Assembly: GCA_021794075.1 (NCBI GenBank)
Contig: JAJYRM010000010.1
Coordinates: 1 to 57,964 of the forward strand
DNA length: 57,964 nt
DNA from: Bacteroidota bacterium
Lineage (GTDB): Bacteria > Bacteroidota > Ignavibacteria > Kryptoniales > JAKASW01
Direction of reading: 5' to 3'
This document shows positions 38,423 through 44,252 of the stretch, piece by piece; the first letter of the stretch is position 1; every line of letters begins with the position of its first letter. Made by a program: the position numbers and the translations under genes. The notes beneath the pieces were generated by a model, which saw only the letters and a list, made by a program, of their open reading frames with translations, was not told the origin of the DNA and did not search any database.

Positions 38423-38602
38423 GTGCCGCGTGAAGCATTAGAAATTCCGTTGAACAAAGGAATTCTAACGCTATTGGCGCCGTCTGGCAATATGGGGAAT
38501 TCGGAGGAGACAGCGATTAAATATCTTTTTAATGGGCAAGCTGCCATGGCGGATCAGATACATTCGGAATATCTACAAGCGAAAGGAGGTGAAAAGGAAT
38601 GA
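38423..38602 (+). CDS. Short ORF translationally coupled to the repeat-peptide gene
   Basis: 59 residues from GTG 38423 (AAAGG at 38411-38415), with ATG 38492 as a shorter alternative of 36 residues. The stop TGA (38600-38602) overlaps the start of the next gene as ATGA (ATG 38599), a classic translational-coupling arrangement. Its last codons double as the strong AAGGAGGTG ribosome-binding site of that gene. The product is PREALEIPLNKGILTLLAPS followed by a mostly helical acidic tail (ETAIKYLFNGQAAMADQIHS). No family recognised. If real, it would be a small partner or chaperone of the downstream peptide. It could also be a regulatory leader ORF. Confidence 0.45.
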   Translation: MPREALEIPLNKGILTLLAPSGNMGNSEETAIKYLFNGQAAMADQIHSEYLQAKGGEKE

Positions 38603-38814
38603 AGTTCATGAATCTTGAACTGGAGAAACTCGAGCAACGTATTGCTCCTGGTATGGTGTACTGCTGCTGTGACTGCGGCGGAACAAACCAAGGGACAGCG
38701 GGGCACAGCAAGGCATCAAAGGCCAGCAAAGCCAGCAAGGCCAGTAAGGCCAGCAAGGCGAGCCACGCTTCGAATGGCTGTGGTACAAGCACGCACGGCT
38801 CAAAAGGCGGGTGA
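38599..38814 (+). CDS. Candidate RiPP-like precursor: LEKLEQRIAPG leader, Cys cluster, Lys-Ala-Ser repeats
   Basis: 71 residues, with a near-perfect ribosome-binding site (AAGGAGGTGA at 38583-38592, six bases before ATG). The N-terminus MKFMNLELEKLEQRIAPGM is leader-like. I recall similar LE-x-LE-x-RIAPG starts in small secreted peptides of other phyla but cannot confirm this here. A Cys-rich block follows (YCCCDCGGTNQG), then six perfect K-A-S triplets plus H-A-S, then NGCGTSTHGSKGG. The codons of the KAS units vary (GCA TCA, GCC AGC, GCC AGT, GCG AGC), which points to selection on the peptide. The next gene encodes a PqqD/RRE-protease-adaptor fusion, a natural partner for leader recognition, cleavage and export. 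A hairpin after it may limit read-through. Confidence 0.75.
   Translation: MKFMNLELEKLEQRIAPGMVYCCCDCGGTNQGTAGHSKASKASKASKASKASKASHASNGCGTSTHGSKGG
38710..38763 (+). repeat. Six tandem 9-base repeats encoding Lys-Ala-Ser
   Basis: Consensus AAGGCCAGC repeated six times in frame within the peptide gene, followed by a degenerate seventh unit (CACGCTTCG, His-Ala-Ser). Copies differ at third positions and by TCA/AGC/AGT serine codons. The array is therefore old or under protein-level selection rather than a fresh slippage product. Confidence 0.9.
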
Positions 38815-38993: not shown

Positions 38994-41480
38994 ATGTCAA
39001 GCAGTCTACCCAAAATCAGGACCGATTTAATATTCACCGAACGGGTAACTTCCGACGGCGTGTCCTTTGTAATCAAGGATCCCCTAAATGACCATTACTT
39101 CCATTTCGGCGAAGCGGAGCGTTTCATCTTGCAGCAGCTCGATGGAGAGACAAACCTAGATGTGGTACGCGCCAGAGCGGAGAAAAAGTTTGATTCCGCG
39201 CTTCCATATGAGACATTAAAAGCGTTCCTCGGAAATTGCAAAACATCTGGTCTGCTCGATACGGGCGAACAGAAAACAAAAAAATCAAAACGACGGTTAG
39301 ACGGTAACTTACTCTACCTTAGGTTCAAACTCTATGACCCTGATGATTTGCTGACCCGGTTGGTGCCCAGGATCGGGTTCTTCTTTACTTCATATTTTAT
39401 GTTCCTGTCGTTTGCCTCTATCGCAATCGCTACCTGTGTGTTGATTACGAACTGGAGCGTGTTTGTGCATGCTCTGTTGGAGCTACGATACGGGGCGATT
39501 CCAGTCCTGCTCGCCGTATCCTTCTTCGTAGTATCTCTACACGAGCTAGCCCATGGGTTAACCTGTAAGCGTTTTGGTGGGAGTGTTCATGAGATCGGCT
39601 TCATGCTGATATACGCGCAGCCCTGCCTCTACTGCAACGTCAGCGATGCGTGGCTGTTCCCCGAAAAGAAGAAGCGGCTTTGGGTCGGCTTCGCAGGTCC
39701 TTATTTTGAACTGTTCATCTGGTCGGTCGCCACACTCGCCTGGCAAGTTACCGTCTTCACATCATGGATCAACTACGTATCGCTAATAATTATGGCAAGC
39801 TCAGGTCTTAAGACCCTCGTCAACTTCAACCCCTTCATCAAATACGATGGCTACTACCTCCTTAGCGATTTCCTGGAGATTCCAAATTTGAGAAGAAGAG
39901 CCTTTCGTTATGTGGGTATGCAGCTGGAGAGACTGGTTGGGAGGAAGCCGCCGCTCACGAAAGAGCTTACCAAGCGAGAGCGACTCATATATCTTGTTTA
40001 CGGCACAATCTCATTCGCCGCTTCTTTTGCCCTCATTCTCGTCCTTATAGGATCAATTGGTGGATACATAGCCAAAGGCACCAGCGGGCTGGTCGGGGCT
40101 CTCTTCGCCGTGGCTATATCAGCATCATGGGTTCAAAGAAGAATGAACAGACTTTTCGGAATCGAGCATATGTTCAAAAAGAAACCGAAAGAAACTGCCG
40201 TCGAGGCTGTCGTGGGACAGTCGCCGCAATCCAGACCTACTTCGGTCGAGTCGACAGGGAATCAACCTGGATCAGAAAATAATCGGACTGAATCGATCCC
40301 AGTGCCAACGGGTGACACCGTGTCGGCGAACAAGACGCAGTCTGGTCGGAACAATGGGAACAATAAAGTGCCTGGTCATGACGGCGGATCGGATCAACTC
40401 AAGAAGAAGGTCCTATGGAAGAAACGATGCGTGTATGTCGCGGTCCTTGGCGCGTTAGGTGTATACCTGTTCTTCGGAAAGGCTCAGAAAAGCGTGACAG
40501 GCCCGTTCGATATAATTCCTACACAGAATGCCAGCGTTCGCACGACAATTGCGGGGATCGTAAAAGAAGTCGACGTGCATGAAGGGCAATTCGTGCAGGT
40601 GGGAGATACGATTGCGAAGCTATCGGATGAGACAAATTCGACGGACCTGAAAAGGATCGAGTATCAGATTTCGCAGAACAAGGCCAAGCTCCTTCTCTTG
40701 AAGAGCGGACCTACTCTGCAGCAGATCAAGCTAGCGCAGACAGATGTTGATAAGGCGCAGGTGCAGGTACACTACTCGGGGCTCAAAGCGGAAATGTCCA
40801 GGAAACTGTATGAAAAAAACATCATTTCTAAAGGGGAGATTGACGACGCGGAAGGAGCTTACGCGCTGGCCCAGCGCGATCTCGAGTCCTCGAAGGCAAA
40901 GCTGGCGGTTCTCCTGCAAGGACCACGTCCGCAGGAGATAGAGGCAAGTCAGGCCGAGATCGCCAGTCTTGAAGCCCAACAAGAATTCCTTTCGACACAG
41001 ATAAAGGAAGCGTCTGTGGTGACTCCGGCAAGCGGCATCATCGCAACGCCGGAGATACAGCTGAGAGAAATGGCGGGGCAAGCGGTCACTAAGGGGGCGC
41101 TGATCGTTAAAGTTTTCGACTTTAGAAAGGTTATTGTGGAAATAGTAGTGTCTGAGGATGACATCGGCGAAGTAAGAGTGGGCCAGAAGGTAGTTCTAAA
41201 GGCTCGGGCTTATCCCAATAAGACCTTCAGCGGCGTCGTCGAGGCGATAGCAATTGCTGCGGAGGGTATAGAATCGTCTACGAGTGCTGGCCAGCCCGCC
41301 AGATCGTCGAAGGCGGCGAACACTTTCATTGTGGCAACAGAGATCGAGAATAGCTCCTTGCTCTTGAAGGCTGGGATGGGCGGCGAAGCGAGAATCTTAT
41401 GCAGAAGAGCCAGGGTACTGAATGTGTTGATAGATCCGCTAGTCCATACTTTGAAGACTCAATTCTGGACATTGTTCTAA
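38994..41480 (+). CDS. PqqD/RRE-like + M50 metalloprotease + HlyD adaptor fusion protein
   Basis: 828 residues in three modules. Residues ~1-95 are a PqqD-like winged helix (YFHFGEAERFILQQLDGETNLDVV split here; ends KTSGLLD), the fold that binds RiPP leader peptides. Residues ~120-390 are a membrane M50 site-2-protease-type domain with HELAH (183-187) and the second zinc motif NFNPFIKYDGYY (277-288, Asp285). About six membrane helices are visible. After a Ser/Asn-rich linker (~400-460) and one more membrane helix comes an HlyD/MFP adaptor: lipoyl half IAGIVKEVDVHEGQFVQVGD, a long coiled-coil hairpin and a second half ending KAGMGGEARI. It should recognise, possibly cut, and pass a small peptide outward. 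No ABC ATPase or TolC is in the window. The start ATG has a weak ribosome-binding site. Confidence 0.88.
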   Translation: MSSSLPKIRTDLIFTERVTSDGVSFVIKDPLNDHYFHFGEAERFILQQLDGETNLDVVRARAEKKFDSALPYETLKAFLGNCKTSGLLDTGEQKTKKSKRRLDGNLLYLRFKLYDPDDLLTRLVPRIGFFFTSYFMFLSFASIAIATCVLITNWSVFVHALLELRYGAIPVLLAVSFFVVSLHELAHGLTCKRFGGSVHEIGFMLIYAQPCLYCNVSDAWLFPEKKKRLWVGFAGPYFELFIWSVATLAWQVTVFTSWINYVSLIIMASSGLKTLVNFNPFIKYDGYYLLSDFLEIPNLRRRAFRYVGMQLERLVGRKPPLTKELTKRERLIYLVYGTISFAASFALILVLIGSIGGYIAKGTSGLVGALFAVAISASWVQRRMNRLFGIEHMFKKKPKETAVEAVVGQSPQSRPTSVESTGNQPGSENNRTESIPVPTGDTVSANKTQSGRNNGNNKVPGHDGGSDQLKKKVLWKKRCVYVAVLGALGVYLFFGKAQKSVTGPFDIIPTQNASVRTTIAGIVKEVDVHEGQFVQVGDTIAKLSDETNSTDLKRIEYQISQNKAKLLLLKSGPTLQQIKLAQTDVDKAQVQVHYSGLKAEMSRKLYEKNIISKGEIDDAEGAYALAQRDLESSKAKLAVLLQGPRPQEIEASQAEIASLEAQQEFLSTQIKEASVVTPASGIIATPEIQLREMAGQAVTKGALIVKVFDFRKVIVEIVVSEDDIGEVRVGQKVVLKARAYPNKTFSGVVEAIAIAAEGIESSTSAGQPARSSKAANTFIVATEIENSSLLLKAGMGGEARILCRRARVLNVLIDPLVHTLKTQFWTLF

Positions 41481-41491
41481 GGAGACAAAAC

Positions 41492-42511
41492 ATGCCTACA
41501 CTATTCGACGTTTGTGATTCAGAAACAAATGTGATGTCGGAAAATGGCTCCCGGGGACATTCGCCGTTTACCGAGGCGAGATCAACTAGAAGCTCTCCTC
41601 AGGGATTCACCGACAAATGCCTTTACTTGACCGGACGCCCTACGCTGCGAGACTTTCTTCACTATGTCAAGAGCCACTCCGCAAATCCGGAAGACGAGGG
41701 CCTATTGACCGACCAATGGAGGTCGGCCCGCGAAATTGTCCTTACCCTTGAGAAGACGGAAGCGGGACTCGCGGACAATCCGAATATTGTTCGGATTGAA
41801 TTGAAATCGGAATACGAAGAACTTCTTACCAATTTTGTAAAAGACCCGCTAGTGCAGCATGGGTTCAATACCGTACCGACAGAAATCGCGTTTGTTGAAC
41901 TGGACTCGATGGTTGTTTACCAGAAGCATATCGATCTTAGTTACGTTGAACAACTCGAAAGAAAATTAGGGGAGTCGCCGAGTTGGGAAAAAGTTTTCCT
42001 GACCTGCTTCCCCCTTGAGCATCCTGTACCGCCTGTCACATGGTCACGCGTCCATGGTGGGAGCTATGTATTTGTGTCGCCATCGAATGATATCCGCTTT
42101 TTAGGCGCGATGCAGCTGCAACCTGGAAACATAAAGGACATTCCACCGCCAGGGAATATGGTAGGAGTAGTTGGGATAGCCGTCGGATTCGGATCGAATT
42201 TCCTTAACGCGATTCAGGTTGAGAACCGGCTTATACTCAACAACGGCAGCCACCGTGCTTACGCGCTCCGCAAACTTGGAATTGCCCGCGTCCCTTGCAT
42301 TGTGCAGCATGTCCACTCGCGCGATGAATTGGATGCCGTTGCGGACTCGGAGGTCATGCGCGATCCGGAGTATTTGTTGCACAATCCGCGGCCTTCAATG
42401 CTAAGGGACTATTTCAATCCTGAACTATACAAAGTCATGCAGGTCAAGAGGCGGCTGTATCAAGTAACGGTGAAGTTTGACGTCGAACAGAATTACATGC
42501 CGGCGCTTTGA
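41492..42511 (+). CDS. ParB-like-fold protein of unknown function, linked to the peptide cassette
   Basis: About 339 residues from ATG 41492, seven bases after AAGGAG, which overlaps the end of the preceding gene. The gap is only 11 bases, so the two are almost surely co-transcribed. The frame is open upstream to 41399, but that part overlaps the fusion gene. Around residues 244-272 is NRLILNNGSHRAYALRKLGI followed by ARVPCIV. This is the G-x-H-R-x-x-A-x-x-x-L-G pattern of the ParB/sulfiredoxin fold, a fold used by DNA-binding CTPases, nucleases and ATP/ADP-dependent serine kinases. The ~200-residue N-terminal part (TGRPTLRDFLHYVK, KVFLTCFPLEHP) is unknown to me. No signal peptide. A role in modifying the Ser-rich peptide is a guess. 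Confidence 0.6.
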   Translation: MPTLFDVCDSETNVMSENGSRGHSPFTEARSTRSSPQGFTDKCLYLTGRPTLRDFLHYVKSHSANPEDEGLLTDQWRSAREIVLTLEKTEAGLADNPNIVRIELKSEYEELLTNFVKDPLVQHGFNTVPTEIAFVELDSMVVYQKHIDLSYVEQLERKLGESPSWEKVFLTCFPLEHPVPPVTWSRVHGGSYVFVSPSNDIRFLGAMQLQPGNIKDIPPPGNMVGVVGIAVGFGSNFLNAIQVENRLILNNGSHRAYALRKLGIARVPCIVQHVHSRDELDAVADSEVMRDPEYLLHNPRPSMLRDYFNPELYKVMQVKRRLYQVTVKFDVEQNYMPAL

Positions 42512-42674: not shown

Positions 42675-44252
42675 ATGTACACAATTGAAACTCCGCGCCG
42701 ATTTTCAGAATCCATATTCTGGCGATTGATGGTCGACTACTACCGCCGGCAAGGCATCAAAGCCTGGAGCAACGGCGAGGTGCCGTTCCGCATCTCAAGT
42801 AATCCTTACATTGCAAACGCATACGCGGAGATAATCACCGGATATCTGCGAGATGTATCTAATGTCGATGATTCCGTCCGCTCCGTGACCATCATCGAGC
42901 TCGGTGCTGGCTCCGGACAGTTCGGCTATTTGTTGGCGCGAGCTCTTGTTGAGAGGACAATTGCAAACGCCGCGTATAAGGGCCCTTCCTTCAAGTATCT
43001 CATGACGGATGTCGCGGACAGCAACGTGTCCGAGTGGGCGAAGAATCCGCGGCTGAGATTTTTGGTGGAACAGGGTATAATGGAGTTTGCCGTTTTGGAT
43101 GTTGCCGATCCTTATTCGGCTATGATCGCTGTCTCACGAAGGTCGCTAGAACAGTTCAACTCTGGAAATCCGGTAGTAGTGATTGCCAATTACGTCCTTG
43201 ACGTGCTGGTCCATGATGCTTTCTCTGTACGAGATGGCAAACTGAATGAGGTACGGATCGGCGTAGAAATCGGAAAGAAGATGCCGGAGATTATTGGAAG
43301 CAAAGAAGTGTTCGAGTCTTTAGCATTCAACAGGACAGCAACTCCGGTAAAGTTCCCTTATTACAATGAGCCAGATCTAGATTCCGTTCTGAAAAGCTAT
43401 TCGACTACTCTTAGGTCTGCTACTTTCCTTTTTCCTGTTTCAGCCCTTCGATTCATGGAGAAGGTGGGCCAAATGAGCGGTGGACGTATGCTGATGATTG
43501 TCAGCGACAAGGCATATATCAGGACAGATCAGTTGGAAGGACAAAACGGCTTGAACTTGGCCGTGACAGGTTCCTTCTCGGCGATCATCAATCTCGACGC
43601 CGTGGCTAGATGGATTGGGGAACACGGAGGGGTTGTCAAAGTCCCCGACTCTGCCAGCTCGCATTTCGACACTTACGCATTTCTTCTTAGGCATACAGGG
43701 GATTTTGTGAATCTTTCGGACGCTTTCTCGCGAGCTGTTGACGACCTTGGCCCCGCGTCATACTGGGCCGTTGCGGAAAACGTGATGCATCATACCGGGG
43801 GATTCACGCTAAGGGCACTCCTCGGGTTCTTGAAATTATCGTGTTACGATCCTTACTTGGTGATGGCGATGAAGGAAAGTCTCCTCCAGGCTGCCAATGA
43901 GGCAGACGTCGAAGGGGGAGAACGACTTTATTCTGCGTTGTCGAAAGTGTGGGGGAATTATTATCCCATGGGCGGCAACCGCGCGCGGCGAGATGTCGCG
44001 TTTCTCCTGGGGAGACTCTTCCGGCGTCTCAGAAAACCCGAAAGATCTCTCGAATGTTTTCGTGCCTCCATGGAGGAATTCGGAGCACATTGCTCAGTCC
44101 TGCGCAATATCGGTATCTGCTATGAAGAACTCGGAGAAAAGGAAGAGGCACTCTCTTATTACAGAGAAGCGTCACGGCTTCGTCCTGATCTGCCTGCGGA
44201 AGAGGGGATTACCAGATTGAGTCAAGTCGACGAAATAGTTGCGAGTCGATGA
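42675..44252 (+). CDS. MidA-like SAM-dependent methyltransferase fused to TPR region
   Basis: 525 residues. The SAM-binding motif I is VTIIELGAGSGQFGYLLARA (about residues 73-92), and a motif IV-like segment VVVIANYVLDVLVHDAF (about 175-191) follows. The V-I-A-N-Y/E-x-x-D-x-L-V/P spacing is that of the MidA/NDUFAF7 (DUF185) arginine methyltransferases, though overall similarity is low. The last ~150 residues are helical repeats. RRLRKPERSLECFRASMEEFG and SVLRNIGICYEELGEKEEAL (34-residue period, then YYREASRLRPDLP) are TPR units for protein binding. It starts at ATG 42675, 163 bases after the ParB-like gene, with a distant GAAGG, so the two may or may not share a transcript. A possible peptide- or protein-modifying enzyme of the cassette. 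Confidence 0.65.
   Translation: MYTIETPRRFSESIFWRLMVDYYRRQGIKAWSNGEVPFRISSNPYIANAYAEIITGYLRDVSNVDDSVRSVTIIELGAGSGQFGYLLARALVERTIANAAYKGPSFKYLMTDVADSNVSEWAKNPRLRFLVEQGIMEFAVLDVADPYSAMIAVSRRSLEQFNSGNPVVVIANYVLDVLVHDAFSVRDGKLNEVRIGVEIGKKMPEIIGSKEVFESLAFNRTATPVKFPYYNEPDLDSVLKSYSTTLRSATFLFPVSALRFMEKVGQMSGGRMLMIVSDKAYIRTDQLEGQNGLNLAVTGSFSAIINLDAVARWIGEHGGVVKVPDSASSHFDTYAFLLRHTGDFVNLSDAFSRAVDDLGPASYWAVAENVMHHTGGFTLRALLGFLKLSCYDPYLVMAMKESLLQAANEADVEGGERLYSALSKVWGNYYPMGGNRARRDVAFLLGRLFRRLRKPERSLECFRASMEEFGAHCSVLRNIGICYEELGEKEEALSYYREASRLRPDLPAEEGITRLSQVDEIVASR

Follow-up and report, generated by a model that had tools for sequence, protein, structure and literature searches.

The window, as we call the whole 57,964-nucleotide stretch analyzed here, carries a short ORF followed on the same strand by the gene of a large fusion protein and by a third gene, encoding a protein that we call ParB370 (Table 1). 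The original prediction described the ORF as having six KAS repeats and a near-consensus ribosome-binding site. Both are present, with one additional HAS unit after the repeats and a near-perfect Shine-Dalgarno site at the start (AAAGGAGGTGAAAAGGA-ATG). It had also been proposed that synonymous variation among the KAS codons reflects selection at the protein level. At both ends of the array, serine codons switch between TCN and AGY and point to selection acting on the protein, although the units in its middle (AAGGCCAGC) are close copies at the DNA level. Immediately upstream, the stop codon of a 59-codon ORF (38423-38602, +) overlaps the precursor start (ATGA), making translational coupling possible; no homologue of the upstream window ORFs (113, 98 and 59 aa) was found in related loci.

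Table 1. Features of the peptide cassette and its downstream flank, in window positions.
Feature	Position	Strand	Remarks
Precursor ORF	38599-38814	+	71 aa; product MKFMNLELEKLEQRIAPGMVYCCCDCGGTNQGTAGHSKASKASKASKASKASKASHASNGCGTSTHGSKGG
Shine-Dalgarno site AAAGGAGGT	38582..38590	+	ATG begins 8 nt further on; similar sites ahead of most homologues
Conserved precursor leader MKFMNLELEKLEQRIAPG	38599..38652	+	Common to homologues from several phyla
Variable core: CCCDCGG block, KAS/HAS array, Gly/Cys/Ser tail	38653..38811	+	
Six KAS units, then one HAS	38710..38763 (six KAS)	+	Ser codons in order (six KAS, one HAS): TCA/AGC/AGC/AGT/AGC/AGC/TCG
Fusion protein, 828 aa	38994..41480	+	PqqD/RRE-like domain aa 26-88; M50; HlyD adaptor aa ~470-826
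ParB370, ParB/Srx/SerK-fold protein	41399..42511	+	Listed start overlaps fusion gene, and the gene may actually begin with the ATG at 41492; conserved third cassette gene
Methyltransf_28-like SAM methyltransferase, 525 aa, C-terminal TPR	42675..44252	+	Cassette membership uncertain

The leader was looked for in 84,980 species, each represented by a single genome, by scanning for DNA that encodes LExLExRIAPG, and 40 stretches were returned. In 12 of these we found small ORFs with the leader and a repeat core, combining leaders such as MKHLNLELEKLEQRIAPGG with Ser/Lys/His/Gly, Gly/Thr or Asn/Pro repeats, in hosts belonging to Verrucomicrobiota (including Opitutia and Chthoniobacterales), Eisenbacteria, Ignavibacteria and Acidobacteria. 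The remaining matches lie mostly inside unrelated longer frames. A 1144-aa protein of Oceanospirillum beijerinckii (L038:267-3701, +) has LEELEDRIAPG near its N-terminus, with no fusion gene within the 8 kb examined. When whole genomes were searched for the adjoining fusion gene and for ParB370, more precursors came to light, some of them as tandem pairs; counting that of the window, 28 were read. The leader, MK.LNLELEKLEQRIAPG, is near-invariant among them, and the cores are hypervariable, low-complexity repeats of 26-90 aa; in the L158 homologue, GGCCCGTGG occupies the position of the CCCDCGG block. The division into leader and core that had been proposed is thus borne out, as homologues in several phyla keep the leader while their cores differ in length and repeat. 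The lack of any homologue sharing this segment was to count against the proposal; the leader search and the tracing of neighbouring genes together yielded 27 further precursors. Short ribosomal precursors with a conserved leader and a variable core are what is expected of RiPPs in the broad sense.

On sequence grounds, the leader defines a family for which we found no earlier description and which is scattered over at least four bacterial phyla. Literature searches with the leader string, or with PqqD, M50, HlyD and ParB combined, gave nothing, and no description of the peptide-export cassette was found in the family libraries or literature searched. Searching with the whole peptide in the genome contigs of the species set and of its own genus gave nothing significant elsewhere, which we attribute to the uninformative repeat. 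Within the genus, searches by peptide, leader and pattern returned the window alone, plus insignificant matches; none of 12 congeneric genomes has the leader motif, and the cassette is therefore sporadic.

In 26 of the 28 cases read, the precursor is followed by the fusion gene; the L048b precursor sits behind its fusion gene, and for the L050 precursor no fusion gene was found in its assembly. Genes follow the order precursor, fusion, ParB370, with gaps mostly of 50-330 nt. Homologous fusions have ~800 aa and are about 34-56% identical to the window fusion over the aligned parts. Their N-terminal ~90 residues match PqqD in eight of nine members tested (best E 6e-7), and solved-structure matches of these N-termini include, weakly, the lasso-peptide protein TfuB1 and PqqD; by profile, a putatively leader-binding (RRE/PqqD-like) domain, as expected of a RiPP locus, is encoded alongside the precursor. 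The M50 part, which carries HELAHG and DG motifs, is an intramembrane metalloprotease; its residues H183, E184, H187, D285 and G286 are invariant among six aligned fusions. It is closest to the daptide and epipeptide proteases, yet falls under both cut-offs. The C-terminus is a HlyD-type adaptor.

In the cassette class to which the window belongs, the fusion gene is followed by ParB370, a protein of ~340 aa without significant Pfam or NCBIfam matches; against the SerK model NF053625 it reached 13.4 bits (E 0.03), below the cut-off of 380, and a profile search against solved structures gave chance matches only. A first model, built on 12 close sequences, had a pLDDT of 39, and 32 diverse sequences raised it to 87.5. 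The resulting AlphaFold model has the sulfiredoxin/ParB/free-serine-kinase fold, the feature shared throughout the Srx/ParB/SerK superfamily. Its best Foldseek matches were 2hwj, PadC, sulfiredoxins and ParB, none with E < 0.02. VIA structural comparison placed sulfiredoxin on top (Z 7.8), then SerK, SbnI, Noc and ParB. The first 31 structural matches (Z 5.0-7.8) all belong to this superfamily or are the unassigned 2hwj, and the first unrelated chain appears at Z 3.2. A single residue, the glutamine Q175, is invariant, and a counterpart of the catalytic Glu30 of SerK is not evident by sequence. We consider ParB370 to be a probable nucleotide-dependent Ser/Thr-modifying enzyme.

Core composition bears on this reading. 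Serine plus threonine make up 31% of the cores in cassettes with ParB370 (n=19) and 13% in those without it (n=7; p=2e-4), a p-value that overstates independence because the ParB370 label changes only three times on the fusion tree (shuffled mean 10), so that the association reflects roughly one evolutionary split and very few events underlie the correlation. Cassettes of a second class have Asn/Gly/Pro/Gln cores (GYEGQPGNQ, GNPGNNNPP) and retain the fusion, with no ParB370 directly after it in four loci with 2.7-7.8 kb of contig remaining; in the fifth locus of this class, L108, the contig ends there. Moreover, ParB370 was detected in one of 387 sampled Verrucomicrobiota genomes, and that genome carries the cassette. 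Among the roles originally offered for the peptide, substrate for serine modification has become the best supported, as a gene of the Srx/ParB/SerK fold accompanies Ser/Thr-rich cores and is missing with Ser/Thr-poor ones. The product itself may act in a matrix or at a surface, bind metal or mineral, or be antimicrobial.

Altogether, what the sequences show is anatomy and association: the leader is conserved, the core is hypervariable, an RRE-M50-HlyD protein is the constant genetic partner, and a third protein has the Srx/ParB/SerK fold. The ORF is very likely the precursor of a leader-guided, RiPP-like exported peptide. In the mechanism that we propose, the PqqD/RRE-like domain would bind the leader, a step that we regard as likely; the M50 domain would remove it by a cut near RIAPG, which is probable; and the HlyD part would pass the core to an outer-membrane channel. 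ParB370 would act on Ser/Thr of the core, in the window those of the KAS array, for which we see an even chance, and its acting as a kinase is a more tentative proposal. The account as a whole, from leader recognition and cleavage to export and Ser/Thr modification, most likely by phosphorylation, is the one that we favour with moderate confidence.

The preference for a kinase over a switch derives mainly from distant homologues of ParB370, which its profile reached in Acidobacteria and which have the segment GSPFFEVAxxRGRWFLRDGYHRAY in common. Pfam weakly suggested VapB for these proteins (best E 0.004), an assignment that was set aside because the fold search gives Srx/ParB. Eight of them, proteins of ~290 aa (L159, L160, L162, L163, L164, L166, L167 and L168, the last at L168:6729-7598, -), were compared for their surroundings, and they occupy one common gene neighbourhood, a cobalamin operon in which the homologue is placed between CobC and PduO. 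Ten neighbours were identified in L168, namely CobU, CobB, CobT, CobS, CobC, PduO, BluB, CobQ, CbiB and CobD. Within one class, such a homologue occurs in about 17 of 220 genomes. CobD consumes L-threonine phosphate. Since no other gene called in the L168 operon would make this compound, we infer that the ParB-like protein is a candidate L-threonine kinase (the PduX role). Nevertheless, the fold alone is no proof of a kinase, as SerK, the functionally nearest kinase, left serine unphosphorylated when it was part of a test peptide (PMC5120207), and CTP was bound by a SerK-like protein (PMC12704722).

In an alternative account, export is likewise leader-guided, but ParB370 is no enzyme acting on the peptide. 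It would instead be a switch dependent on CTP or ATP, a chaperone or a regulator, and the core would leave the cell unmodified, as a low-complexity peptide of a surface, adhesive or matrix kind. CTP switches and SerK-like CTP binders are both found within the fold (PMC12704722), an exopolysaccharide-type cluster follows in the window, and the fusion might serve for nothing but export, given the Ser/Thr-poor cassettes without ParB370 and the divergent fusions near LExLExR proteins, of which some are large. However, ParB370 tracks the Ser/Thr content of the core, and its distant homologues belong to a pathway in which a kinase for an amino-acid hydroxyl group is required; we consider this alternative rather unlikely.

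Two other explanations have far lower probability. Membership in the His-Xaa-Ser (HxsA) radical-SAM system is suggested by NCBIfam HxsA4, the only family match of the peptide (E 6e-4), but the match reaches 20.6 bits where the cut-off is 55, and it covers only the core-facing part of the profile; as no radical-SAM gene (HxsB/HxsC) occurs among the window neighbours scanned (33.9-50 kb), this assignment is very improbable. A chance or decaying repeat ORF next to a transporter gene would agree with the partial DNA-level copying of the KAS units and with the motif missing from the 12 congeners. It is refuted, to a negligible residual probability, by the synteny and the cross-phylum conservation of the leader, which keeps its position ahead of the fusion gene and is accompanied by ribosome-binding sites. 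The 71-aa ORF is genuine, since the same leader in 27 other precursors and the common gene order are not expected of chance.

In five loci with divergent fusions (L100, L102, L103, L104 and L114), there are genes for proteins that bear LExLExR or LExRxLLS close to the N-terminus. In L100 this protein exceeds 900 aa, and in L102, L104 and L114 (about 970-1600, +) paired proteins of ~100-160 aa with METLESRELFAA or VEVLESRELFAA lie near the divergent fusion gene. L103 (1-3932, -; 4062-6083, -; 6095-8377, -) contains a LEPR-XLL protein of >1300 aa, a SecA-like protein, the M50-HlyD fusion and two further HlyD proteins, and looks like a dedicated secretion locus. No LExLExR-type protein was found in six other divergent-fusion loci examined, and six loci with unrelated M50 genes, the sole control, gave one implausible match. 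As a lead, this suggests that LExLExR sequences, including those of LEPR-XLL proteins, may be a general export signal read by the fusion family.

Other genes occur near the cassettes. No homologue of the methyltransferase listed in Table 1 was found in related loci. A FemAB-family transferase directly follows ParB370 in L085 (10507-12331, +), L095 and L097, in L085 and L095 with a ~220-aa protein after it, and these may be further tailoring enzymes. Subtilase-like genes lie near the cassette in L085, L092, L095, L099 and L112, two of the five having Peptidase_S8 and a subtilase prodomain by Pfam. The FemAB genes (three loci) and subtilase-like genes (five loci) were left out of the cassette as insufficiently conserved. 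The genome of the window also encodes a second M50 protein of about 450 aa (G000:C209:5975-6622; L008/L013), with relatives in four congeners, which belongs to a different system without the RIAPG leader.

For LExLExR signals, and perhaps for LEPR-XLL among them, the cassette offers concrete candidates for the roles of reader, protease and exporter. The ParB/Srx/SerK fold is familiar from chromosome segregation, sulfiredoxin repair and free-serine kinases; modification of the core by such a protein would be a new use of it, and in the Acidobacterial cobalamin operons examined, a member of the same family would be a candidate L-threonine kinase. In a bolder picture, which we regard as speculative and improbable as a whole, these peptides would form a new leader-guided class whose Lys/His/Ser-repeat core is phosphorylated at many serines by a kinase of the ParB/sulfiredoxin fold and then exported by a single protein that combines RRE, protease and adaptor. 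What is secreted would be a zwitterionic phosphopeptide similar to the silaffin-type peptides that bind minerals or metals, and large LEPR-XLL surface proteins would depend on the same LExLExR signal and exporter family. Cores of the SKSHKSHSSGSKGSGSK type presumably resemble silaffins, which may serve as a lead.

Compared with known systems, HxsA His-Xaa-Ser peptides are likewise small and have a three-residue repeat containing serine, but the window peptide does not reach the model cut-off and has no radical-SAM genes among the neighbours scanned. LEPR-XLL proteins (NF012209) have an N-terminal LExLExR signal, as the window peptide does; the L103 protein, which differs in its size and in having RILLS instead of RIAPG, matches that model, whereas the window peptide does not. 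SerK, SbnI and sulfiredoxin have the fold of ParB370 and a G-x-H-R motif that we take to correspond to its conserved segment NNGSHRAYAL, but SerK and SbnI act on free serine, and sequence similarity to ParB370 is below significance, with the SerK Glu30 not evident. The daptide (NF041824) and YydH/LiaK epipeptide (NF058609) systems likewise pair an M50 membrane metalloprotease with a small precursor, and the window fusion matches both profiles below their cut-offs (207 of 300 and 38 of 225 bits, respectively); it differs in that its M50 part is fused to an RRE-like domain and a HlyD adaptor. Finally, PqqD/RRE-dependent RiPP systems also have a leader-core precursor adjoining a protein with a PqqD-like domain, but in the window this domain forms one protein with a protease and an exporter, not with a modifying enzyme, and the putative modifier has a ParB/Srx fold.
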